A stretch of 64,000 nt of DNA. Source: Methanoculleus taiwanensis. GTDB taxonomy: Archaea; Halobacteriota; Methanomicrobia; Methanomicrobiales; Methanoculleaceae. The notes under the pieces were generated by a model, which ran no database searches, was not told the DNA's origin, and was given only the letters and a program-made list of their open reading frames with translations. Positions 7,102 through 64,000 of this stretch are shown piece after piece; within the stretch, counting starts at the first letter, position 1; every line of letters begins with the position of its first letter. The stretch spans positions 539,327-603,326 of the forward strand of contig NZ_LHQS01000001.1 of assembly GCF_004102725.1 (NCBI RefSeq), read 5' to 3'. The translations under genes and the position numbers were made by a program.

Positions 7102-7405
7102 CGCTTCCAGAGCCTGGAGACGCCTACACGGGGTCTGCAGGCCGCTCATGTATCCTCTTCTGCTATGACTGCGTTTCCCTGGCATACACGGTATTTTGCC
7201 TCTTCCGTCCCAAATTTTCCGGCATTTTGTAAATAGGCTGCATTTACGTCGGAAGGGAAAGGGAAACCGTTTAATGTCGCATGGACAATAATCTGGAATG
7301 GAGCACATTCCGCATATCTGCGGCCGGAGATGCCACATCAGGCCAGGCAGTCCGGCTTTTTTACCGTGGGGATCGGGCCGGCTCTTTTCCTGAAGGTGGT
7401 TATTG
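7102..7405 (+). promoter_or_regulatory. Intergenic leader of the C1 protease gene with hairpin and T-run
   Basis: No gene is seen. A purine-rich/TTTAATG promoter-like sequence lies at about 7252-7275. About 50-80 bases later GCCGGA (7323-7328) can pair with TCCGGC (7351-7356), followed directly by six T (7357-7362). A Shine-Dalgarno-like GGTGGT ends at 7400 just before the ATG. The hairpin plus T-run inside a leader resembles an attenuator, and two other secreted-protein genes have a similar layout. Confidence 0.45.
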
Positions 7406-9622
7406 ATGATACGTAATGGTGGCCTCTCTCCATTGTGCATACTTCTGTTCGCAGTCCTCGTCAGCGTAACGGGGATACTCTCCGCTGCCCCGGTCGATTC
7501 TGCCGGAGATCCGGCGTTCGACGGCACCCCCGGACAGCAGACGGCACTCTCCGATACTCCTGTCTGCGGGTACGTCCCGTCGCCGGTCTCTTTCGATGAT
7601 CTCGATCCGTCTCTCTCACGGCAGGGGGTCTCTGTCATGGAAACACTCCCGGCCACCTTCGACCTTCGGGAGGAAGGACGGGTGACCCCGGTTCACAATC
7701 AGGGGAGCGCGGGAGTCTGCTGGGCGTTCGCCACCTATTCGTCCCTCGAATCCGTCCTGATGTCAGAGAACGAATACGATTTTTCCGAGAACAACATGAA
7801 GAACCTCCTCTCATCGGGCTACCCGGATGGGTTTGATCGGGGTCCGAACGACGGCGGAGACGGGGTTCAGTCTCTCGCGTATCTTGCCCGGTGGACGGGC
7901 CCGGTCTCGGAAGAGGGCGATCCCTACTCCCCGACATCTTTGGTATCGCCGACCGATCTGGCGGCGGTCGCCCACGTTCAGGACGTCCTGTTCCTGCCGA
8001 AGATGACCATCGCCGGGGCGGAAGCGGTGGTAAAACAGGCTGTGATGGAGTACGGTGCGGCCTTTACCGATATGCACTGGACGAACGACGGCTGGAACGA
8101 AGCGAATAGCACCTATTATTATGCCGGCCCGGCCGAGTCCAATCATGCCGTCGCCATCGTCGGGTGGAACGATTCCTTCAGCCGCCATGCCTTCAGTCAG
8201 GCTCCCGCCGGCGACGGCGCCTGGATCATAAAGAACAGCTGGGGAGCCGACTGGGGAGATGCCGGATACTTTTACATATCCTATAACGATACCCGGCTCG
8301 GCAGCATGTGGCAGGGCGTATATACCGCAGAACCGGCAGATACGTACGACGGGATCTACCAGTACGATCCCCTCGGGATGTGTGGGAAGTTCGGATACTC
8401 TTCTGCCACAGCCTGGTTTGCCAACGTCTTCACGGCTACTGCCGATGAAGACCTCCGTGCGGTGAGCTTCTATGTTCCCCAGTACTCCTCGACATACGAG
8501 CTCTTTGTGTACACAGCTCCTGACGGCGGGCCGGAGAACGCCACGGGCCCGGTAGCAGTGCAGAACGGCACCCTTGATGAGCCCGGGTACCGGACGATCC
8601 CCCTCCTGGCTGCGGTTCCGCTGCAGCAGGGAGAGGGTTTCTCGGTCGTGGTGAAGCTCACTGCTCCCGGGTTGACGACGCCGGTTGCGGTTGAATACCC
8701 GATTGCAGGCTACTCGAGCAAAGCCTCGGCGAATCCCGGCGAGAGTTACGTCAGCAGTAACGGCGAAACCTGGCTCGATCTTACCACCTGCACCAACCTT
8801 GCCGAGGCCAACGTCTGCCTCAAGGCTTTCACGACCCTCCGTGTCGCCCCGGTCGCAAACTTCACTGCCAATGTCACCGCGGGCACTGCCCCGCTTGCCG
8901 TCCGATTCACCGACCTCTCCACAGGTAGCCCGACGTCCTGGAACTGGACGTTCGGTGACGGTGCCGCCTCCACGGAGCAGCACCCCGCCCACACCTACAC
9001 GGTGGCGGGCGTCTACACGGTGAACCTGACGGTCACCAATGCCGACGGGAACGACTCGATGGTGAAGGCGGACTTCGTCACCGTCAGTGCCGCCGCACCG
9101 CTCGTCACCGCCCCCGCGGCAATGCCTTCCGTTATCCCGACCGATACGGATGGCTCCGCGGGAACGGGTGAGACTGCCGTGCTTTCCGTGGCGGTGAGCG
9201 GCGCAGAGATCGCCTCGGTGACGGTGAACCTCTCAAGCATAGGCGGGTCGTCTGTAACACCGATGGCCGATGCCGGGAACGGCATCTGGACGGTGAGTAC
9301 GACCGGCACCGTGCCGTCGCCGTTCACGGGCGGCACCTACCTCCCGGTGCTCCTCACCGTGAACGCCACCGGCGCCGACGGCCTTTGCAACACATCGGTC
9401 GCTATCCCGCTCACCGTGGTGAAAAACGGCGATGCGAACCAGGATTGCCGGGTCACGCTCTACGACGCCGTCTACACGGCACGACATCTCCTTGAAATCG
9501 AGGGTTACCCGATGACGGAGAGCGTCGGCATGGTCTCTGGCGGTGACGATCTCTCGCTCGTTGATGCGATGTACCTCGCAAAGCATCTCCTTGGGCTCCC
9601 GGGTTTTGAGGCGTTGCACTGA
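7406..9622 (+). CDS. Secreted papain-family (C1) cysteine protease with PKD and dockerin-like modules
   Basis: A 738-residue exported protein. Order: signal peptide (1-28, cleavage near ILSAA), C1 peptidase domain with oxyanion Q99, catalytic C105 (QGSAGVCWAF), H247 (NHAVAIVGW) and N277 (IIKNSWG), a lectin-like beta domain (about 305-480), a PKD domain (about 485-565), an Ig-like domain opened by VIPTDTDG, and a C-terminal pair of dockerin-like calcium loops (GDANQDCRVTLYDAVYTARHLL and GGDDLSLVDAMYLAKHLL). The catalytic triad is intact, so an active surface or secreted protease is expected. The last two modules recur in the partner proteins at 12006 and 19639, tying it to the same system. ATG 7406 follows GGTGGT; a TTG sits just upstream. 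Confidence 0.88.
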   Translation: MIRNGGLSPLCILLFAVLVSVTGILSAAPVDSAGDPAFDGTPGQQTALSDTPVCGYVPSPVSFDDLDPSLSRQGVSVMETLPATFDLREEGRVTPVHNQGSAGVCWAFATYSSLESVLMSENEYDFSENNMKNLLSSGYPDGFDRGPNDGGDGVQSLAYLARWTGPVSEEGDPYSPTSLVSPTDLAAVAHVQDVLFLPKMTIAGAEAVVKQAVMEYGAAFTDMHWTNDGWNEANSTYYYAGPAESNHAVAIVGWNDSFSRHAFSQAPAGDGAWIIKNSWGADWGDAGYFYISYNDTRLGSMWQGVYTAEPADTYDGIYQYDPLGMCGKFGYSSATAWFANVFTATADEDLRAVSFYVPQYSSTYELFVYTAPDGGPENATGPVAVQNGTLDEPGYRTIPLLAAVPLQQGEGFSVVVKLTAPGLTTPVAVEYPIAGYSSKASANPGESYVSSNGETWLDLTTCTNLAEANVCLKAFTTLRVAPVANFTANVTAGTAPLAVRFTDLSTGSPTSWNWTFGDGAASTEQHPAHTYTVAGVYTVNLTVTNADGNDSMVKADFVTVSAAAPLVTAPAAMPSVIPTDTDGSAGTGETAVLSVAVSGAEIASVTVNLSSIGGSSVTPMADAGNGIWTVSTTGTVPSPFTGGTYLPVLLTVNATGADGLCNTSVAIPLTVVKNGDANQDCRVTLYDAVYTARHLLEIEGYPMTESVGMVSGGDDLSLVDAMYLAKHLLGLPGFEALH

Positions 9623-10054: not shown

Positions 10055-12022
10055 ATGCAGATTCGTGTAGTAATTGCGGGAATTGTCCTCTGCTGCCTGC
10101 TCATCGGCGGTGTCGCGGCTGAAGAGGGTGAACTTATCGATCCGGTTCCCCGGGACCCGTATGCGGCGCCCTGCCCGGACGAGGTATCGGTGGACGAGGT
10201 GTCCGAAAGCCCGGTCGTCACCGGTGCGGCGGTGCAGGCGGCTCCGGCGATCGAGTGGGTACGCTCCCTCGGCGGAACTGAAAGGGAGTATGGCTCCAGT
10301 ATCGTTCAGACCTCCGACGGGGGCTACTTCCTGACCGGGAGAACCGCTTCGAACGACGGCCAGGTCACCGGGTACCATAGCGGCACGTACACAAGCGAAG
10401 ATGTCTGGGTCGTGCGCCTCTCGCCGACCGGCGCGCTCGTCTGGGAGCGGTGCCTCGGCCAGCCCGATACCGACTACGGGTTTGACGGGGTCCAGACTGC
10501 CGACGGCGGATTTGCCATCACCGGATGCGTTTGGGCAGACGGCGGCGATGTCTCCGGGCACCACGGCTCCACCGACATCTGGGTCGCAAAGCTCGATGCG
10601 ACCGGGTCGCTCGCGTGGCAGAAGTGCATCGGCGGAACATGGGGAGAATATGGATACAGCATCCGGCAGACCTCCGACGGCGGCTACATCATCGGGGGGG
10701 TGACGACATCGATCGACGGCGATATCAGTGGAAATCACGGCGGCTATGATGGTGTTATCGTGAAGCTGAACGCCACGGGCGGGATTGAATGGCTCCGGTG
10801 CCTGGGTGGCAACAAAGCGGACGACTTCAACGCGGTCCGGCAGACATCCGACGGCGGCTACATTGCCATCGGAAAGACATATTCCAACAACAACGGCACC
10901 GTCGGTGCCAATCACGGATACACCGATATCTGGGTGGTGAAGCTGACGGCGACGGGGCTCGTCGACTGGCAGAAGTGCCTCGGGAGCAGCAGCTACGACG
11001 GGGGGTACGCGATCCTGGAGTCTCCGGACGGAGGGTACGTCCTTACCGGGTACGTGGAGGGCAACGACGGCGATGTCTCCGGAAACCACGGGAGCATGGA
11101 TCTCTGGGTGGCAGAGATCGACGGTATCGGGCGGGTCCTCTGGCAGCAGTGCCTTGGGGGCAGCGGCAGGGATCTCGGCACCTCGATCGTAGCGACCTAC
11201 GGCGGGTACGTCGTCACCGGGCAAACCGAATCGACCGACGGCGACGTCTCCGGAGGCCACGGCGTCAGCTACGACGTAGGCGATCTCTGGGTCGTCAGGA
11301 TCGACGATGATGGCACCCTGATCTGGCAGAAATGCATCGGCGGTTCGGCAATTGAGGTTGGTTCATCCGTCATCTGTACAAGCGACGGGGGGCTTGCGAT
11401 AGCCGGATACACGGGCTCCACCGACGGCGACATCCCGGAGAGCCACGGGGGATATGATCTCCTGGTGGTCAAACTCGGAAGCGACGCCGCTCCGATTCCG
11501 ACGGCGGAGAGCATCGCGCTCTCTGCCGGCTGGAACTTCGTCTCGACCCCGAAACGCCTCGCCGACGACCAGAGCACCGCATCACAGGTCTTCGGGGAGG
11601 TGAACACTTCAGGTCACTCGATCTTCGCCTACGACGCCGCCGCCGGGAACTGGACGACGCTCGGTGCGGCAACGGTGGTTCGGCCGCTTGAGGGGATATG
11701 GATCTACAGCAACCGTTCGACCTCTGTCCCCCTCGCATTTGCCTCCGGCGAGGCGCAGACGCCGCCCTCGAAGGTGCTCGCCGCCGGCTGGAACAGTATC
11801 GGGTTTGCTGGAATAGTCCCGGTCAGTGCGAGGGACTGCCTCCTCTCGGTCAGCGACGAATGGGCGACGCTTTTGCGGTGGGACGGGGTGGAACAGGAAT
11901 ACGGAACCGTGATCGTCAACGGCGGGAGCGGTGATGCCGCCGATAGCGCGCTGCTCTATCCAACGGAAGGCTACTGGATCTTTATGAGGAAAGGCGGTGT
12001 ACTCGGTGCCATCAGTGGGTAG
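10055..12022 (+). CDS. Secreted seven-repeat beta-propeller-like protein with GWNFVSTP C-terminal domain
   Basis: A 655-residue exported protein: signal peptide (1-22), a linker, then seven repeats of about 55 residues (about 66-475). Each unit reads roughly TSDGGY-hydrophobic-G-T-S-DGD-SG-HG-D-WVVKL-G-WQKCLGG. Seven units suit a closed seven-bladed propeller. A C-terminal domain (about 490-655) begins LSAGWNFVSTP and is shared with the proteins at 12958 and 17763. The function is not known to me; surface binding or adhesion is likely. I chose the start MQIRVVIAG because it matches the paralogues (MSIRVAL, MTIRTVL), gives a clean signal peptide and follows GGAG; a longer in-frame start is at 10007. 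It overlaps the next gene by 17 bases. Confidence 0.85.
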   Translation: MQIRVVIAGIVLCCLLIGGVAAEEGELIDPVPRDPYAAPCPDEVSVDEVSESPVVTGAAVQAAPAIEWVRSLGGTEREYGSSIVQTSDGGYFLTGRTASNDGQVTGYHSGTYTSEDVWVVRLSPTGALVWERCLGQPDTDYGFDGVQTADGGFAITGCVWADGGDVSGHHGSTDIWVAKLDATGSLAWQKCIGGTWGEYGYSIRQTSDGGYIIGGVTTSIDGDISGNHGGYDGVIVKLNATGGIEWLRCLGGNKADDFNAVRQTSDGGYIAIGKTYSNNNGTVGANHGYTDIWVVKLTATGLVDWQKCLGSSSYDGGYAILESPDGGYVLTGYVEGNDGDVSGNHGSMDLWVAEIDGIGRVLWQQCLGGSGRDLGTSIVATYGGYVVTGQTESTDGDVSGGHGVSYDVGDLWVVRIDDDGTLIWQKCIGGSAIEVGSSVICTSDGGLAIAGYTGSTDGDIPESHGGYDLLVVKLGSDAAPIPTAESIALSAGWNFVSTPKRLADDQSTASQVFGEVNTSGHSIFAYDAAAGNWTTLGAATVVRPLEGIWIYSNRSTSVPLAFASGEAQTPPSKVLAAGWNSIGFAGIVPVSARDCLLSVSDEWATLLRWDGVEQEYGTVIVNGGSGDAADSALLYPTEGYWIFMRKGGVLGAISG

Positions 12023-12932
12023 CGGCACCCGTGTCGTCCGAAAGATCGTTCTGCTCGCCATAGGTCTCTGCATCGGCATGGCGTGTACCATTCCGGTAGC
12101 GGCGGTGCCGTCGCTGCCGGCGGAGTTCTCCGGCACCGTCCTGATAAACGGTGAATCCGCTCCAGCGGGCACGGTGGTCGTCGCCCTGCTCGGCGGTGAG
12201 GAACGGGGCAGGATTGTCACCGTCGCCGAGGGAGTGTATGGCGGGCAGACAGCGTTCGACCGGCGACTGCTTGTTCAGGCACTCGAAGGGGATATCGATC
12301 AGACGGTCGGCTTCACCGTCAACGGAGTCGGAGCGGCAGAGACCGCCCCGTTCTCCGCCGGGGTAAGCCGGAGATGCAACCTGACGGCGTTCATCTCGTC
12401 GCTGACGGTGACAGTTCCGTCGGGTGCGACGCCGGTGATCCCGACCGATACCGACGGCGTCGCTGGCCACGGCGAGGCGGCACTCCTCGCGGTGACGGTC
12501 ACGGGTTCGGGAAGCGTTCAGTCGGCGATGGTAGACCTCTCGTCTATCAGCAGATCTTCGACGACCGCCCTTCTGCAGGGTGGGGGGAATGCCTGGTCGG
12601 TGAACGCAACGAGCGCTGTTCCGTCGGCTTTTGAGAACGGCACCTACCGGCCTTTCTCGTTCACGGTGCATGTCACCGATACGAACGGGTATCCGGCGCG
12701 ATCGGTCTCGCTCCCGCTCATTGTGGTGAAGAACGGGGATGCCAACGAGAACAACCGGGTCACGCTCTACGATGCCGTCTACATCGCACGGCATTACCTG
12801 GGTAGTGCGGGTTTTGCCTCGATGCACGAGAACGTCGGGGACGTGACCGATAACGGCGCGGCAGACCTCGCCGATGCGATGTACCTCGCTAAACACATAC
12901 TGGGGATACCCGGATTTGAGGTGCTCCGCTGA
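12006..12932 (+). CDS. Secreted small partner with beta-sandwich domain, Ig-like domain and dockerin-like C-terminus
   Basis: About 308 residues: signal peptide ending near VAAVPSLP, a beta-sandwich domain with the phrases SGTVLINGESAPAG and GGEERGR, an Ig-like domain opened by VIPTDTDG, then two dockerin-like loops (NGDANENNRVTLYDAVYIARHYL and NGAADLADAMYLAKHIL). The GTG start at 12006 is chosen because it lies six bases after GGTG and the equivalent GTG is conserved in the paralogue at 19639; GTG at 11997 is an alternative. The start lies inside the end of the propeller gene, so translation is probably coupled. The two proteins may assemble on the cell surface (inference). No function is known. 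Confidence 0.8.
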   Translation: MPSVGSGTRVVRKIVLLAIGLCIGMACTIPVAAVPSLPAEFSGTVLINGESAPAGTVVVALLGGEERGRIVTVAEGVYGGQTAFDRRLLVQALEGDIDQTVGFTVNGVGAAETAPFSAGVSRRCNLTAFISSLTVTVPSGATPVIPTDTDGVAGHGEAALLAVTVTGSGSVQSAMVDLSSISRSSTTALLQGGGNAWSVNATSAVPSAFENGTYRPFSFTVHVTDTNGYPARSVSLPLIVVKNGDANENNRVTLYDAVYIARHYLGSAGFASMHENVGDVTDNGAADLADAMYLAKHILGIPGFEVLR

Positions 12933-12957
12933 CCGGATCTGCGAGGACATTATGGTG

Positions 12958-15900
12958 ATGAGTATTCGTGTAGCCTTGATGGTGTCGATCCTGCTCTTCC
13001 TTGCTGTCGGCGGCGCTGTGGCGTGGGAGGATGCCGCAGGCACCTGTCCGGTATATAGCGAGCCTTTCGCGGAGACCGCTGGCGGATACCCCTCGGAGGT
13101 CGATCTCTTCGGGGGCGAAGGGCTCGGGGATGCGGTGACGGCAACGGCTCCGCAGGTTATATGGGCGCGGTCTCTTGGGGGAAGTTCGAGTGACGACTCC
13201 CTCTCTATCCGGGAGATCAGCGGCGGTGGCTTCGTCGTCGTCGGCAGCACGGCCTCAAACAACGGGGATGTGAGCGGCAATCACGGTTCCAGCGACCTCT
13301 GGGTCGTGGGACTTGCATCGAACGGGTCACCTGAGTGGCAGCGGTGCCTTGGCGGTTCTGCCCGGGATGTGGGGAGAAGCGTCGTGGAGACCTCTGACGG
13401 CGGCTACATCGTCGCCGGTTTTACCGAATCGAGCAACGGTGACGTCACCGGAAACCATGGGTCTAGCGATCTCTGGGTGGTAAAACTCTCCGCGACCGGG
13501 ATGTTCGAATGGCAGAAATGCCTCGGGGGGGGTCTTGCCGATCAGGGGCACTGCATTCTGCAGACTGTAGACGGGGGGTATATTCTCGTCGGATATACTG
13601 AATCTACCAATGGGGATGTCTCCGGGAACCACGGCGGTGCTGACGGCTGGGTGGTGAAGCTCACCTCCGCAGGCGGGATCGAGTGGCAGCGGTGTCTCGG
13701 CGGGAGCGGATCCGACTACCTCCAGCGCATCCGGGAAACACCGGATGGTGGCTACATTCTTGCCGGGTATACGTACTCGAACACCTCCGGCACTGTCGGG
13801 ACGAACCACGGGAGCAGTGACATGTATGTCGCAAAGCTCGGCAGCGACGGAGCAGTCGACTGGAGCCGGTGTCTCGGCGGGATGGGTGCGGAGTACGGCT
13901 ACGACGTCGTGCCGACCGGCGACGGCGGGTTTCTGGTGCTCGGGATAACCAATTCGTTCGACGGTGATGTCACCGGCAACCATGGCAGTGCCGATCTCTG
14001 GGTGGTGAAACTCGACGCCTCCGGCAGCACCGCCTGGCAGCACTGTTACGGTGGTTCGGGTGCGGATTACGGCTACACGATTGCGCCGACCGTCGGGGGC
14101 TATCTCATCGCCGGATACACATTCTCAAGCAACGGCGACGTTGCAGGCCTTCATGGGAACCGGGATATCTGGGCGATCAAGGTTGGCGACGCCGGGTCTC
14201 TCCTCTGGCAGAAGTGCATCGGCGGTGCGGCGGGTGATTACGGATACGGCCTCCTGATGACGAGTGAAGGGAATTATGTCATTGCCGGAGCCAGCGAGTC
14301 TACTGATGGCGATATTGTCGGCAATCACGGCATGTGGGATGCCGTCGCTGTCAGCCTCGGTGCCGATGCGATCAGGGCGGGATTCACGGCAAACGTCACC
14401 GGAGGGGATCTGCCTCTGCAGGTTGGGTTCACGGATACGTCTCTCGGAGCGGGGACGTCGTGGCTCTGGGGGTTCGGCGACGGAAACACGTCCACCGCCC
14501 GGCATCCCACGCATGTCTATACCGCTCCCGGGAGCTACACGGTTGCCCTCACCGTGGCCGGTTCCGGTATGAGCGATACACTCTCGAAACCCGGCTTTAT
14601 TACAGCAACCGTTCCGGCTCTTGCAGCAAACTTCACGGCCAACCTGACGGGTGGATATGCGCCGCTGGCCGTGCAGTTCACCGATTCGAGTTCCGGTGCA
14701 GTGGCAGACTGGCTCTGGCAGTTCGGTGACGGTTCTTCATCGGTCGAACAGAATCCGGTACACACCTACGCGAAACAGGGCATTTACGCTGTCAACCTGA
14801 CGGTCTCCGACGCCTACGGGCAGATCGCCTCATCCTCGAAGGCCGCATATATCAACGCGTGGACGGACTCCTCCGAAGTCGTCTGGATGCGGTGCCTCGG
14901 CGGGACACTGGTGGACTCCGGGCAGACAGGGGTTGAAACGGCCGACGGAGGCTACGTGCTCATCGGGTCGGCCGCCTCGTCCGATGGTCAGGTAAACGGG
15001 AATCACGGAGCGAGCGACGTATGGGTGGTCAGGGTCTCGCCGACCGGGGCGCTGGTCTGGCAGCGGTGCTTCGGCGGAAGTCTGGACGAGTATGGGTATG
15101 CGATCGCCGCCACGCCCGACGGCGGGTTTATCGCTGCCGGGACCGCCGCATCGGCCGACGGTGACGTTACCGATGTCCATGGGGGGTACGACGCCTGGCT
15201 GCTCAAGCTCGATGCGGACGGCGGGCTTTCGTGGCAGAAGTGCCTTGGCGGTACGGGAGACGAGGCGGCATACGGGATCGGTCTGATCGGGGACGGTGGC
15301 TACATCCTTGCAGGCTACACCACCTCGTCGGACGGCGGGGATGTCAGTGGCCAGCACGGCCTGTCGGATGCATGGGTCGTCAGGGTCAACACGACCGGGA
15401 GCATTGAGTGGCAGCGCTGTATCGGTGGGAGCGGGTCAGAGGCACTGTTATCTATCCGGCCAACCGCGGAAGGAGGCTCTATTGCCGCCGGTTACACGAA
15501 CTCGAATAGCATCGGCGACATCGGGACAACAAAAGGCGGCAGGGATCTTCTGGTCGTCAAGCTCACGGGAACCGGGACAACCGACTGGCAGCGGATCTAC
15601 GGGGGAAGCTGTGACGATAGCGCCTCCGATGTGTACCCGACTGCCGATGGTGGCTTTATCATCGTCGGAAGCACGGAATCAAACGACGGCGACATCATCG
15701 GTCACCGGTCGAAGAGCGACTGCTGGGTTCTTCGCTTCAATCCGGTCGGCACTCTTCTCTGGCAGCGCTGCCTCGGGAGCGCCGGCGATGATTCCGGCAG
15801 TGCAATCCGGCCTGCGGCTGATGGTGGATACCTGATGGTCGGCAGTATTGCCGGGACGGGATACGATGTGAGTGGTTATCGGGGAGGATCCGATATCTGG

Positions 15901-16635
15901 GCGGCGACACTCAGTTCCTCCGGGTCGCTCCTCCGGCAGCAGTGCATCGGTACGTCGGCGAACGAGACCGGGCACGGCCTGGTGGTATCCGGCGATGGCG
16001 GTGTGCTTATCGGAACTACAGGATCAAGAGACGGGGTCTTTTCCGAGAACCACGGCGGGGACGATCTCCTGGTGATGAAACTCGTCGCCGTCGACGCCGG
16101 AGACCCGGAGCCTGAAACGGGCTCCCTTTCCCTTTCGGCCGGGTGGAACTTCGTCTCGACCCCGCACGTGCTTGCCGACGGGTATAACACGGCCGCCTCG
16201 GTCTTCGGTGCCGTCGATGTCGCGGAGCACTCCATCCTGATCTATGATACGGCTGCCGGGATCTGGGTGGCGATGAATGCGACGGATCCGGTGCGGCCGC
16301 TTGAGGGGATCTGGGTATACAGCAGCACCGCGATGAATCTCCCGCTCGTTTATGCTTCAGGTGAGGCGGCGACCCCGCCTGCGAAGGCTCTCGTGGTCGG
16401 CTGGAATGCCGTCGGGATCACCGGCACCACGCCGCTCACCGCCCGCGACGCTCTCCTCTCGGTCGAGGGTGGGTGGACGACTCTCATCGGGTGGGATGCC
16501 GCTCTGCAGCAGTACGACTGCGCTATCATGAGTGGTGGCCTTGGTGAATCGAGCGATACCCGCCCGGTGAACCCCGCGGAGGGTTACTGGCTCTTTATGA
16601 CCGAAGAGCGGGTGCTCGGGGCAGTCGGCGCGTAA
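12958..16635 (+). CDS. Secreted double propeller-like protein with two PKD domains
   Basis: A 1225-residue exported protein. Order: signal peptide (MSIRVALMVSILLFLAVGG...), seven repeats (about 60-460), two PKD domains (about 465-545 and 548-628; WGFGDGNTS and WQFGDGSSS cores), a second set of seven repeats (about 630-1050), and the GWNFVSTP C-terminal domain. Each repeat block alone equals the single block of its neighbours, so the gene looks like two propeller units joined through PKD spacers. Several codons in a row could start it (12952, 12955, 12958); I chose 12958 by comparison with the M-x-IR starts of the paralogues, with GAGGA at 12943. It lies 25 bases after the previous stop, so probably in the same transcript. 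Confidence 0.85.
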   Translation: MSIRVALMVSILLFLAVGGAVAWEDAAGTCPVYSEPFAETAGGYPSEVDLFGGEGLGDAVTATAPQVIWARSLGGSSSDDSLSIREISGGGFVVVGSTASNNGDVSGNHGSSDLWVVGLASNGSPEWQRCLGGSARDVGRSVVETSDGGYIVAGFTESSNGDVTGNHGSSDLWVVKLSATGMFEWQKCLGGGLADQGHCILQTVDGGYILVGYTESTNGDVSGNHGGADGWVVKLTSAGGIEWQRCLGGSGSDYLQRIRETPDGGYILAGYTYSNTSGTVGTNHGSSDMYVAKLGSDGAVDWSRCLGGMGAEYGYDVVPTGDGGFLVLGITNSFDGDVTGNHGSADLWVVKLDASGSTAWQHCYGGSGADYGYTIAPTVGGYLIAGYTFSSNGDVAGLHGNRDIWAIKVGDAGSLLWQKCIGGAAGDYGYGLLMTSEGNYVIAGASESTDGDIVGNHGMWDAVAVSLGADAIRAGFTANVTGGDLPLQVGFTDTSLGAGTSWLWGFGDGNTSTARHPTHVYTAPGSYTVALTVAGSGMSDTLSKPGFITATVPALAANFTANLTGGYAPLAVQFTDSSSGAVADWLWQFGDGSSSVEQNPVHTYAKQGIYAVNLTVSDAYGQIASSSKAAYINAWTDSSEVVWMRCLGGTLVDSGQTGVETADGGYVLIGSAASSDGQVNGNHGASDVWVVRVSPTGALVWQRCFGGSLDEYGYAIAATPDGGFIAAGTAASADGDVTDVHGGYDAWLLKLDADGGLSWQKCLGGTGDEAAYGIGLIGDGGYILAGYTTSSDGGDVSGQHGLSDAWVVRVNTTGSIEWQRCIGGSGSEALLSIRPTAEGGSIAAGYTNSNSIGDIGTTKGGRDLLVVKLTGTGTTDWQRIYGGSCDDSASDVYPTADGGFIIVGSTESNDGDIIGHRSKSDCWVLRFNPVGTLLWQRCLGSAGDDSGSAIRPAADGGYLMVGSIAGTGYDVSGYRGGSDIWAATLSSSGSLLRQQCIGTSANETGHGLVVSGDGGVLIGTTGSRDGVFSENHGGDDLLVMKLVAVDAGDPEPETGSLSLSAGWNFVSTPHVLADGYNTAASVFGAVDVAEHSILIYDTAAGIWVAMNATDPVRPLEGIWVYSSTAMNLPLVYASGEAATPPAKALVVGWNAVGITGTTPLTARDALLSVEGGWTTLIGWDAALQQYDCAIMSGGLGESSDTRPVNPAEGYWLFMTEERVLGAVGA

Positions 16636-16767
16636 CGTGGATTTTTTCGGGTGAGAGGGATGGCAGGCACCTCTCCGCCCACCAATTTTCGATCCGGCGC
16701 GGCCAACCGCCCGGGGTGTTTTGGTAGATTTGATATACCGCTGAGCGATACCGGTATACGATCAACA
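16636..16767 (+). promoter_or_regulatory. Promoter region of the anchored partner gene
   Basis: Six T at 16642-16647 directly follow the propeller stop codon and may end its transcript. A TATA-like TTTGATATAC lies at about 16729-16738, and the palindrome ATACCGGTAT at 16748-16757 sits between it and the ATG, a possible operator. No Shine-Dalgarno is seen, so a very short leader is likely. Confidence 0.4.
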
Positions 16768-17481
16768 ATGCGGCATAGAAACTTCCTCCTCGGCCTCCTG
16801 CTCGTCGCAGGCTGCATCGCTGCAGTGACGGCGGCACCCGCTCTTCCGTGCGAGTACTACGGCGAGATCAGCATCGGCGGAAGCCCTGCACCGGTCGGGA
16901 CAATCATTACCGCGACGATCGGGGGAGCGGAGCGGGGACGGCTCGTCACCTCGGTGGAAGGTACGTACGGGGGTACGGGGACGTTCGATACCCGGTTGCT
17001 TGTGCAGGCCGTTGAGGGTGACGATACGTCGACTGTCACCTTCCTCGTAAACGGTATTGCGCTTCTAGAGACGGCGGAGTATACCCCGGGCGCGATCGTG
17101 CGGATGGATCTCGCCCTCCAGAGCACACCGCCGGAGACCAATACAACGACGATACCGACGACGATACCAACCACAATACCAACCACCGCACCGGTCTCCG
17201 ATTCGGGAGGCTCCTCATCGTCCTCCTCTGCGGGCAGCACGACGCCCACCACCGCTCCGATGATTCCGTCGCCGTCCGCCTCCCCGACCCCCTCGGCAAC
17301 TCTGTCCGGGGCTGTTACGCCCGATCGCACGTCGGCGCCGGTAACCGGCCAGACTCCGGTAACACTTCCCCGGTTCGACACGGCAGCCCCGACGCCGGAG
17401 GCGACGACGCAGCAGGCGCCCCTGCAGTACGCCCCGTTTGCCGCACTCGCCGTCATGCTGGTCATGGCGAAGAGACGGTGA
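16768..17481 (+). CDS. Small partner protein with Thr/Ser/Pro stalk and C-terminal membrane anchor
   Basis: A 237-residue protein: signal peptide (1-23), the same beta-sandwich domain as the partners at 12006 and 19639 (YYGEISIGGSPAPVG, GGAERGR, FDTRLLVQA), then a low-complexity stalk rich in Thr, Pro and Ser (about 120-215), and a C-terminal hydrophobic stretch ending in MAKRR. This tail looks like an archaeal cell-surface anchor; no PGF-type processing motif is visible. Unlike the other two partners it lacks the Ig and dockerin-like modules, so it could be the fixed anchor of the set (inference). ATG at 16768 gives a proper signal peptide; an upstream in-frame ATG at 16651 would add 39 residues without that character. 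Confidence 0.78.
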   Translation: MRHRNFLLGLLLVAGCIAAVTAAPALPCEYYGEISIGGSPAPVGTIITATIGGAERGRLVTSVEGTYGGTGTFDTRLLVQAVEGDDTSTVTFLVNGIALLETAEYTPGAIVRMDLALQSTPPETNTTTIPTTIPTTIPTTAPVSDSGGSSSSSSAGSTTPTTAPMIPSPSASPTPSATLSGAVTPDRTSAPVTGQTPVTLPRFDTAAPTPEATTQQAPLQYAPFAALAVMLVMAKRR

Positions 17482-17762
17482 GGTGCCGGTCAAACGCGGG
17501 TATCAGACCCCCTTACCCGTGAGGAAACCCGTTGCACCTGTTCCTCGGCTGATAAGCGGCGATAAAGCATCGGGAGAAAGAATAACCTTTAATAATTTCT
17601 CATCGCAGCTGAGGCATATCGGACACCTCGCCTTCAGTCTGCACACCGGTTTTTTCTGTCCTCGAGGACAGCGGGGCACCTGATCCGTCGCCGCCCGTCA
17701 GCCTCCGGGTTGAACCGGCGTCGGTAGCGTCTGTCCTGAATAGTATGGGAGCATGATATACC
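17482..17762 (+). promoter_or_regulatory. Long structured leader of the third propeller gene
   Basis: No gene is seen. The promoter-like AAAGAATAACCTTTAATA (17577-17594) closely matches the one at 9856. The leader then holds a hairpin with GCAGCTGAGGC (17605-17615) pairing with GCC-TTCAG-TCTGC (17630-17642, two bulged T), the block ACACCGGTTTTTTCTG (17643-17658), and a perfect hairpin CTGTCCTCGAGGACAG (17656-17671). GGGAG at 17747-17751 precedes the GTG start. Confidence 0.5.
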
Positions 17763-19655
17763 GTGACGATACGTACCGTGCTGCTTGCAGCACTCCTTGT
17801 CTGTCTCTTTGCCGCCGGTGCTGCGGCAGAGACGGGAACCGTACCTGAAACACCCCCGCTCATGGGCGCAGAGGACGTCGAAGCCCAGGGAGTCTTTCCG
17901 GAGATCGCCTGGGCGCACTGCTACGGCGGGAGTTCTACCGATCGCCTGAATGAAGTCCAGCAGGTATCCGACGGAGGATACGTTCTCATCGGGCATACCT
18001 ACTCAAACATGACGGGAGATGTCGGTGTCAATCATGGTTCGTTCGATGCCTGGGTCGCGAAGCTGACCCGGTCCGGAACCCTTGCCTGGCAGCGGTGTTT
18101 CGGTGGGAGCGACGATGATTTAGGCACGTCCGTCCTGGAAACAACGGACGGAGGTTTGATCCTCGCTGGCAGAACCAACTCGAATGCAACCGGCGATGTC
18201 GGCATCAATCATGGTTCATTCGATGCCTGGGTGGTGAAACTGACAGCCACCGGGACTATCGAGTGGCAGCGCTGCCTTGGCGGGAGTAGTGCTGATTATG
18301 GCGTGAATCTCCTGCAGACTGCAGATGGGGGGTATCTACTCGCCGGCCAGACCCAATCGACCGACGGCGACGTCTCCGGCAACCACGGCAGCGTCGATGC
18401 TTGGATAGTACGGCTCACCCGCGAGGGCGGTATCGACTGGCAGAGCTGCTTTGGCGGCATTGGTATTGATTCTGCGAACAATATCCGGCAGACCTCGGAC
18501 GGCGGATATATCTTTATAGGGAGTACGACCTCCAACGACGGCAACGTCAGCGCCAACCACGGCTCCAACGATCTCTGGGTCGTGAAACTGACCGAATCCG
18601 GGACTCTTGCCTGGCAGCGGTGTCTCGGGGGAACCGGCTTAGATTATGGCACTGACATCCGACAGACCGGAGACGGCGGATACATTCTCATCGGAAGGAC
18701 GAGTTCCAATGACGGCGATGTCAGCGGCAACCACGGTTCCATGGATCTCTGGGTCGTAAAACTGACCGAATCCGGAACCCTTGCCTGGCAGCGGTGTCTC
18801 GGCGGAAGCGAGGATGACATGGGCTCCGGCATATGGGTGAAGAGCGACGGCGGCTACCTCCTGGCAGGAGCGACGGAATCGGACAGCGGGCAGGTCACGG
18901 GCAACCATGGGGATGGGGATGCCTGGCTGGTGGAACTGACGCCCGCCGGGAACATGGAGTGGCAACGCTGCTTTGGCGGGAGTAGTACTGATTACGGCGT
19001 GAATCTCCGGCAGACGGCTGACGGTGGTTTAGTCTTCGGCGGATATGTCTACTCTAACAACGGCGACGTCAGCGGCAACCACGGCGGCTACGATCTCTGG
19101 GTGGTACAGCTGGGCGACGGGGCAATGCCCGAACCGGCCCCGGTTACCATAGTACTCTCTCCAGGCTGGAACTTTGTCTCGACCCCGAAACGCCTCGCCG
19201 AAGGTAACAGCACCGCATCAGAGGTCTTCGCCACGGTAGATACCGCCGGCCACTCCATCTTCCGCTACGACGCCTTCAACGAGGCGTGGGATGGGATGGG
19301 CAAGGACGATCCGGTGCTGCCGCTCGACGGCATCTGGATCTACGCGAATACGACGACCACCATCCCGCTCACCTTCGCCACCGATCTGCAGACGCCGCCG
19401 ACGAAGGAGCTCTGGTACGGCTGGAACGCCGTCGGTGTCGGCAGCGCCGAGGCGGTCAGCGCCCGTGACTGCTTCTACTCGGTCAGGAGCGGGTGGGCGA
19501 CCCTCATCAGCTGGAACGCGACGGAGCAGCAGTACGGAACCTCGATCATCAACGGCGGGAGCGGGAGCTACAGCGATGCGAGGCTGCTCTACCCGACCGA
19601 GGCTGCGTGGGTCTTCATGGGGGCGGATGGTGTCCTCGGTGCGATCACTGCGTAG
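17763..19655 (+). CDS. Secreted seven-repeat beta-propeller-like protein with GWNFVSTP C-terminal domain
   Basis: A 630-residue exported protein starting at GTG (MTIRTVLLAALLVCLFAAGAAAE). Seven repeats of about 55 residues (about 40-450) are followed by the C-terminal domain that begins LSPGWNFVSTPKRLAEG. Neighbouring repeats are very alike at DNA level: the stretch around 18574-18632 recurs almost unchanged around 18747-18805, a sign of recent duplication or gene conversion. Architecture and size match the protein at 10055. The gene is preceded by the structured leader described separately and overlaps its small partner by 17 bases. Function unknown; extracellular binding is plausible. Confidence 0.87.
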   Translation: MTIRTVLLAALLVCLFAAGAAAETGTVPETPPLMGAEDVEAQGVFPEIAWAHCYGGSSTDRLNEVQQVSDGGYVLIGHTYSNMTGDVGVNHGSFDAWVAKLTRSGTLAWQRCFGGSDDDLGTSVLETTDGGLILAGRTNSNATGDVGINHGSFDAWVVKLTATGTIEWQRCLGGSSADYGVNLLQTADGGYLLAGQTQSTDGDVSGNHGSVDAWIVRLTREGGIDWQSCFGGIGIDSANNIRQTSDGGYIFIGSTTSNDGNVSANHGSNDLWVVKLTESGTLAWQRCLGGTGLDYGTDIRQTGDGGYILIGRTSSNDGDVSGNHGSMDLWVVKLTESGTLAWQRCLGGSEDDMGSGIWVKSDGGYLLAGATESDSGQVTGNHGDGDAWLVELTPAGNMEWQRCFGGSSTDYGVNLRQTADGGLVFGGYVYSNNGDVSGNHGGYDLWVVQLGDGAMPEPAPVTIVLSPGWNFVSTPKRLAEGNSTASEVFATVDTAGHSIFRYDAFNEAWDGMGKDDPVLPLDGIWIYANTTTTIPLTFATDLQTPPTKELWYGWNAVGVGSAEAVSARDCFYSVRSGWATLISWNATEQQYGTSIINGGSGSYSDARLLYPTEAAWVFMGADGVLGAITA

Positions 19656-20550
19656 CACCGCCTGGAGGATCACCCTCGTGGTGGTCGTCATCTCTCTCGG
19701 CATGGCTCTCGCCGGAACGGTTGCTGCCGTCCCGCCGCTCCCGGCGGAGTACTCGGGCACAGTCACTATCAACGGTGACCCTGCCCCGGCGGGCACGGTG
19801 ATCGTCGGCCTGATCGGCGGCGAGGAGCGAGGCCGCCTGACCACCACCGAGGAGGGGGCTTTCGGTGGTGAGAGCCCGTTTGCCGTCCGGCTGCTCGTCC
19901 AGGCTGCCGAGACGGATGAGTATCTGACGGTAACCTTTCTGGTGAACGGTGTCCCGGCGGGAGAATCGGTCACGTTCGTTCCGGGTTCTATCCAGGTCGT
20001 CGACCTGACCGTCTCTGCCTCATCCCTGACGGTCTCGGCGGGTGCGACGCCCGGCGTTATCCCGACCGACACCGATGGAGTTCTCGGAACAGGCGATGTA
20101 TCGCTCCTTGCGGTCGTCGTCTCCGGCGATACCGGCGTGCAGTCGGTGAGGGTGAACCTCTCGGCGATCGGCGGGTCGTCCGTAACCCCGATGGCAGACG
20201 CCGGGAACGGCACCTGGTCGGTGAACGTCTCGAGCACGGTCCCGTCACCCTTCACGGGCGGCGCCTATCAACCAGTCCTCCTCGCCGTCAATGCGACCGA
20301 CGCAAACGGGGTCAGCAACACGTCGGTTGCGATCCCGCTCACGGTCGTGAAGAACGGCGATGCGAACCAGGATAACCGCGTCACGCTCTACGACGCCGTC
20401 TACACCGCCCGGCACTTCCTCGGGATCGAGGGCTACCTGATGACGGAGAGCATCGGGATGGTCTCGGGTGACGACACCCTCTCGCTCGCCGACGCGATGT
20501 ACCTCGCCAAACACCTCCTCGGGGTTCCCGGGTTCGAGCAGCTCCACTGA
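19639..20550 (+). CDS. Secreted small partner with beta-sandwich, Ig-like and dockerin-like modules
   Basis: About 303 residues: signal peptide (residues 1-27, ending GTVAAVPPLP), beta-sandwich domain (SGTVTINGDPAPAG, GGEERGR), Ig-like domain (VIPTDTDG onward, with GGSSVTPMADAGNG also present in the protease at 7406), and two dockerin-like calcium loops (NGDANQDNRVTLYDAVYTARHFL and GDDTLSLADAMYLAKHLL). The start is GTG at 19639, matching position for position the start of the paralogue at 12006 inside the preceding gene; ATG 19627 and GTG 19630 are alternatives. The last 150 residues are nearly the same as those of the protease, so these two proteins should dock to the same partner if dockerin function is conserved. 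Confidence 0.8.
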   Translation: MRSLRSTAWRITLVVVVISLGMALAGTVAAVPPLPAEYSGTVTINGDPAPAGTVIVGLIGGEERGRLTTTEEGAFGGESPFAVRLLVQAAETDEYLTVTFLVNGVPAGESVTFVPGSIQVVDLTVSASSLTVSAGATPGVIPTDTDGVLGTGDVSLLAVVVSGDTGVQSVRVNLSAIGGSSVTPMADAGNGTWSVNVSSTVPSPFTGGAYQPVLLAVNATDANGVSNTSVAIPLTVVKNGDANQDNRVTLYDAVYTARHFLGIEGYLMTESIGMVSGDDTLSLADAMYLAKHLLGVPGFEQLH

Positions 20551-63288: not shown

Positions 63289-64000
63289 ATGAAGAACAGG
63301 GTTTTTGTGGCATGTATGCTGGCCTTCGCCGCCTGCATCGTCGGCGGAGCGGCGGCGGCAGCCCCCGGTATCGAGTGGTCGTACAAGTTCGGTGGGAGCG
63401 GGACTGACTACTGGCCGGATATTGCTGCGACCGCCGACGGCGGATCGATCTTCGCAGGGCAGTCGAACTCGCAGGACGGGAATATCACCGATCCGCTCGG
63501 TCTGTACGATATCGTCCTGCTGAAGCAGGACGCGGACGGTGCCGTCGAGTGGCAGAAGAATATCGGCGGAACCGGGAACGAAGCTTCCGGCCGGGTGCGC
63601 CAGACTTCCGACGGCGGTTTTATTCTTACGGGAACGACGAAGTCGAACGACAACGATGTGAGCGGACTGCACGGCACCTACTACGATATATGGGTGGCCA
63701 AATTCACCGAAAGCGGCAGCATCGAATGGCAGACGTGCCTCGGCGGGAGCCATACCGAGGATGGCATGGATGTCCGGCAGACGAGCGACGGCGGCTACAT
63801 CGTCGTCGGCAACACGTACTCGACCGACGGCGATGTGACCGACCGGATCGGCGGCACCGCCGATGCCTGGGTCGTGAAGCTGAACAGCACCGGCGGCATC
63901 GGGTGGACGAAGTGTGTCGGGCGGGACGGAGAAGGTGAGATGGCAAACGGTGTCGTGCAGATGAGCGGCGGGGACTATATCATTGCAGGAAGCTCGAACG
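63289..64000 (+). CDS. Secreted propeller-repeat protein, 3' end outside window
   Basis: The first 237 codons of another member of the propeller-repeat family: signal peptide (MKNRVFVACMLAFAACIVGGAAAA) and four repeats before the window ends (ATADGGSIFAG, QTSDGGFILTG, QTSDGGYIVVG and QMSGGDYIIAG cores). The repeats are the same unit as in the proteins at 10055, 12958 and 17763, 43 kb away. GGAGG lies eight bases before ATG. The total length and C-terminal modules cannot be seen. Confidence 0.85.
   Translation, partial: MKNRVFVACMLAFAACIVGGAAAAAPGIEWSYKFGGSGTDYWPDIAATADGGSIFAGQSNSQDGNITDPLGLYDIVLLKQDADGAVEWQKNIGGTGNEASGRVRQTSDGGFILTGTTKSNDNDVSGLHGTYYDIWVAKFTESGSIEWQTCLGGSHTEDGMDVRQTSDGGYIVVGNTYSTDGDVTDRIGGTADAWVVKLNSTGGIGWTKCVGRDGEGEMANGVVQMSGGDYIIAGSSN

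Follow-up and report, generated by a model that had tools for sequence, protein, structure and literature searches.

Seven-unit repeat blocks in a Methanoculleus taiwanensis locus are predicted to fold as beta-propellers of the CylK C-terminal kind

The window analyzed here, i.e., the whole stretch of 64,000 nucleotides of Methanoculleus taiwanensis DNA, carries three tandem two-gene pairs between positions 10055 and 20550, in each of which a partner gene comes after a gene for a repeat protein. The repeats are encoded by three open reading frames, 10055-12022 (protein A), 12958-16635 (protein B), and 17763-19655 (protein C), and the beginning of a fourth gene of this kind lies at the right-hand end of the window. 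The features of the locus, with the evidence for each in parentheses, are as follows.

10055..12022, + strand: protein A, with a signal-peptide-like N-terminus, one seven-unit block, and a C-terminal "GWNFVSTP" domain of ~172 residues
10256..11488, + strand: predicted seven-bladed propeller block of A, units at residues 68-478 (unit count; CylK match, E 3.8e-20)
11504..12019, + strand: "GWNFVSTP" domain of A (alignment)
11997..12932, + strand: partner gene 1, shared N-terminal domain and type I dockerin, start codon uncertain (PF00404, E 2.1e-05; alignment)
12958..16635, + strand: protein B, two seven-unit blocks flanking a PKD pair, and a C-terminal "GWNFVSTP" domain (CylK match, E about 1e-18)
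13162..14367, + strand: predicted propeller block 1 of B, seven units (unit count)
14392..14841, + strand: PKD domain pair separating the two predicted propellers of B (PF18911, E 7.1e-33, two stretches)
14884..16095, + strand: predicted propeller block 2 of B, seven units (unit count)
16117..16632, + strand: "GWNFVSTP" domain of B (alignment)
16651..17481, + strand: partner gene 2, shared N-terminal domain, a stalk rich in Ser, Thr, and Pro, and a hydrophobic C-terminal segment with KRR after it, start codon uncertain (alignment)
17763..19655, + strand: protein C, one seven-unit block and a C-terminal "GWNFVSTP" domain (CylK match, E 6.4e-22)
17910..19121, + strand: predicted propeller block of C, modeled as stretch 17895-19133 (AlphaFold2, pLDDT 95.7, 28 strands; best PDB match by Foldseek, CylK)
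19143..19652, + strand: "GWNFVSTP" domain of C (alignment)
19660..20550, + strand: partner gene 3, shared N-terminal domain and an end that resembles a dockerin but scores under the Pfam cut-off, start codon uncertain (PF00404, E 0.024; alignment)
63289..64000, + strand: first part of a fourth propeller protein, truncated where the window ends (in the whole genome, seven units and a C-terminal dockerin; locus L021)

In alignment, an N-terminal domain of ~100 residues is common to the three partners, which differ in their ends. By inspection, the hydrophobic segment and KRR that close the second partner are probably a membrane anchor, and signal-peptide-like segments are seen at the N-termini of A, B, and C. 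The "GWNFVSTP" domain matched no Pfam or NCBIfam family; it also ends other proteins of the same genome (loci L023, L024, and L025).

To delimit the repeat units, each protein was cut at its W-x-x-C-L-G-G strand. These W-strands begin at residues 68, 130, 188, 246, 305, 363, and 424 of protein A, at 69, 127, 185, 243, 302, 360, and 417 in block 1 of protein B, at 643, 701, 759, 818, 877, 935, and 993 in its block 2 after the PKD pair, and at 50, 109, 168, 226, 284, 342, and 400 of protein C. An HMM of the unit gave identical counts (A, 7; B, 7 + 7; C, 7), so that exactly seven units per block, as had been counted from the letters alone, is borne out by both procedures. The spacing of the units is 57-62 residues, mostly 58. 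In addition, a single W-x-x-C-L-G-G strand stands alone at the start of each block and the last unit of the block has none, a layout expected if the first strand closes the ring.

The sequence-only reading had taken the constant count as the mark of a closed seven-bladed propeller and had proposed a structure prediction of one block, with an open solenoid as the contrary outcome. When the block of protein C was modeled with AlphaFold2 from an alignment of 76 rows (the block and 75 relatives), the prediction was of high confidence (pLDDT 95.7, pTM 0.92) and contained 28 strands in a regular arrangement of four per unit (7 x 4), running from a first strand at residues 4-10 to a last one at residues 400-406 of the modeled stretch. 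In a Foldseek search of this model against the PDB, five entries of CylK came out on top (E 5.2e-23 to 3.9e-22; TM normalized to the query, 0.82-0.85; 413-425 alignment columns), the best of them being 7fh6 (E 5.2e-23, query-normalized TM 0.85, 420 columns), and the next match was far behind (E 1.1e-11). Closure of the ring was assessed from the order of the strands together with the Foldseek match to the closed CylK domain over the whole block. On this model and match, the blocks very probably fold as closed seven-bladed beta-propellers of the kind found in the C-terminal domain of CylK.

An open beta-solenoid or another linear repeat fold, in which seven would be a coincidence of descent, draws some strength from the fact that the four blocks share their number by descent (see below), so that constancy within the window alone proves little. 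However, the high-confidence 28-strand model, the seven-bladed propeller that is its best solved match over the full block, and the unit-for-unit alignment of the family profile with CylK all speak against a linear fold. Furthermore, seven dominates across many phyla, including in blocks whose units have a median internal identity of 75-81% and which are thus recently amplified. We consider such a linear fold extremely improbable.

The relationship of the propeller blocks to CylK is also detectable by sequence search alone, where A, B, and C each match CylK at E of about 1e-18 to 1e-22. The unit had at first been left without a named propeller family; the profile search now places the C-terminal domain of CylK as its nearest solved relative, with positions 9-408 of the family profile aligned in one stretch to residues 254-654 of the CylK chain (E 1.7e-40). 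Homology therefore extends across all seven blades, with the units corresponding one to one. Crystallography has shown the C-terminal domain of CylK to be a propeller of seven blades whose inter-blade loops contain bridging Ca2+ sites (PMC8916777). In the window, the acidic residue of the matching GGSxxD/E loop is present as D or E in all 28 units, and the Asp preceding the W-V-V-K-L strand is likewise kept in all 28. By analogy, Ca2+ may sit at the blade junctions of A, B, and C. The window blocks thus share with the solved CylK domain (PDB 7ron, 7roo, and 7fh6-8) the seven blades, the one-to-one units, and the acidic residue of the inter-blade loop.

Since CylK is the closest solved relative and an enzyme, it could be asked whether A, B, and C are CylK-type alkylating enzymes rather than binding scaffolds. 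CylK, an enzyme of cyanobacterial origin, carries a Ca2+ beta-roll at its N-terminus, a domain that A, B, and C do not have, and its catalysis requires Arg105 of that beta-roll together with Tyr473 and Asp440 (PMC8916777). In the window proteins, by contrast, the first unit already begins at residue 50-69, after nothing more than a signal-peptide-like segment and short linker, leaving no room for a beta-roll, and no beta-roll family was found in Pfam and NCBIfam searches of the window proteins. The identity of the window blocks to CylK is about 25%, and the catalytic residues are not conserved in the alignment: in block 1 of protein B, the one block checked, Tyr473 aligns with Ala and Asp440 with Tyr. 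An alkylating activity of this type is thus highly unlikely, and the role of A, B, and C is expected to be binding rather than catalytic.

Among the database models, no Pfam propeller family scored above its cut-off for the propeller proteins of the window. PqqD (PF05402) was above cut-off on protein A, yet the match covers only ~20 residues (119-138) inside one unit of a domain of about 67 residues and is regarded as spurious. Two NCBIfam models of repeat proteins, NF047494 (the Leptospira SBBP lipoprotein, named as a beta-propeller family) and TIGR02608 (the delta-60 repeat), show detectable similarity, with E down to 7.9e-16 and 1.7e-08, respectively. Their best scores were 57.8 bits against a curated cut-off of 400 and 34.2 bits against a curated cut-off of 76.5, and the window proteins are not members of either family. 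Profile matches to the designed "Bagel" propellers (8prj, 8prs, and 8pra) were weak, with no passing stretch, and a literature search for archaeal or Bagel-type propellers returned nothing specific. The fold is a known one of an already solved kind, and a count of seven is ordinary for a propeller family. What the present analysis adds is a fold and a solved relative for a widespread, unnamed repeat family, abundant in Bacteroidota and methanogens, which, the spurious PqqD match aside, previously had no Pfam or NCBIfam model above cut-off.

The four blocks had been treated as independent instances of the number seven, and this is not borne out. When blocks were compared unit by unit at every cyclic shift, the mean identity peaked at shift 0 in all six block pairs. 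For block 1 of B and the block of C, it was 54.6% at shift 0 vs 48-51% at other shifts, and for the block of A and block 2 of B it was 47.5% vs 38.8-45.2%. The margins are modest (A and C, 49.5% at shift 0 vs at most 48.7% elsewhere), but the direction is the same in all pairs. Because all six pairs are most similar in register, whole blocks appear to have been duplicated and the count inherited with them; most likely, as judged from these alignments, the four blocks descend from one seven-unit block by whole-block duplication. Amplification at a local scale is also visible within the block of C, where units C4 and C5 are 74% identical.

Relatives outside the window were counted in two samples. 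The first, made up of the best 80 named loci and the family loci, was found with a seven-unit query and so favors full-length blocks; of its 131 blocks scored complete, 117 had seven units, 6 had six, 4 had eight, 2 had four, one had five, and one had 12. The second was collected with a two-unit query over the window's order (40 stretches) and gave seven units in 43 of 46 blocks and eight in three, or seven in 44 of 46 once L193, scored as an eight-unit block, was read by eye as seven units with insertions.

Several of the deviating counts in the first sample do not hold on inspection by eye. The counts of four and four in L061 and of five in L043 seem to come from blocks of seven that a frameshift or stop has divided, and L093 (six) reads as six units plus one after an insertion. 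Two further six-unit blocks, L061 7472-8803 and L063, may be cut short, and the locus with 12 units (L047) contains masked bases. As a separate observation, L061 2527-4240 and L043 5878-7770 are propeller genes apparently interrupted within a unit by a frameshift or stop.

Other deviations appear to be real. Convincing six-unit blocks are those of L020 (block 1), L062, and L064, and L063 is probably another. Eight-unit blocks are present in L034 (three tandem Methanospirillum genes), L050, L186, and L187, which taken together represent Methanospirillum-type archaea and one Flavobacteriales protein. L186 and L187 belong to one genus (g28) of the window's order; the genome of L187 is a single contig, and its eight units are therefore unlikely to be an assembly error. 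L020 (contig C2, 1205000-1210448) is a paralogue in the same genome as the window, in which PKD domains and two blocks, the first of six units and the second of seven, are joined in one chain. Assembly collapse is unlikely to lie behind its six-unit block, because the identity of 300-base copies there to each reference copy does not exceed 85%, with the caveat that the contig ends inside the gene.

The idea that a closed ring would enforce seven units thus stands as a strong preference (117/131 and 44/46) but not as absolute constancy, since the repeat number varies in a minority of relatives, an outcome that the sequence-only reading had named as one that would speak against it, with six units in L020 and three other loci and eight in Methanospirillum-type archaea and one Flavobacteriales protein. 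Such scatter is familiar from other propellers: Pereira and Lupas (2022; PMC9218822) describe repetitive beta-propellers that have a preferred blade number per lineage together with smaller and larger forms. Those propellers resemble the present family in their amplified blades and in a preferred number with scatter on both sides, and the families named in the relevant passages are other ones, the words CylK and SBBP being absent from the main text (PMC9218822). As the scatter is documented for repetitive beta-propellers there (PMC9218822), it qualifies the word "enforce" while the propeller reading itself stands.

The real six- and eight-unit relatives, together with the in-register similarity of the window blocks, could also be taken to mean that seven reflects common descent only and that blade number drifts freely under no structural constraint. 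Free drift, however, would not be expected to leave some nine blocks out of ten with exactly seven units in Bacteroidota, Ignavibacteria, Thermotogae, Chloroflexi, and methanogens, and a preferred number with scatter is the pattern reported for other propeller lineages (PMC9218822). We therefore regard unconstrained drift as very unlikely. In the ring model that we favor, each unit would contribute four strands, the lone first W-x-x-C-L-G-G strand would complete the last blade and close the ring, and this closure would keep the number of units near seven; the four blocks of the window would share seven through duplication of whole seven-unit blocks.

The most interesting side of the finding is the six- and eight-unit relatives themselves. 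In Methanospirillum-type archaea, eight-unit blocks occur beside seven-unit ones, and a family whose close relatives have sets of six, seven, or eight near-identical blades would be useful for studying how blade number changes. If the six- and eight-unit blocks of near-identical 58-residue blades fold as six- and eight-bladed rings, they could, tentatively, represent a natural series of blade-number changes in close relatives. The AlphaFold2 model of the eight-unit block of L034 was poor (pLDDT 60 from four aligned rows), so that its Foldseek result says nothing firm on eight blades, and votes on which of the eight units was added were inconsistent.

The surroundings of the propeller genes point to the cell surface. 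PKD and dockerin domains are present at the locus, cohesins are encoded in the same genome (contig C2, 635-649 kb) along with other dockerins, and in the paralogue L021, which starts at the right window edge, propeller and dockerin are fused in one chain; this fusion speaks for a functional link between the two. A, B, and C would be extracellular, most likely as scaffold or binding proteins that this methanogenic archaeon secretes to its surface, and their assignment to secreted surface scaffolds in particular is moderately favored. They are encoded with their partners in the three tandem pairs; two of the partners have a dockerin or a dockerin-like repeat at their end, the third a probable membrane anchor. 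The scaffold may be stabilized by Ca2+ and tied to the dockerin partners. Upstream of the three pairs, the gene at 7403-9622 encodes a papain-family peptidase domain together with lectin-like and PKD domains, and its product ends in a dockerin-like stretch.
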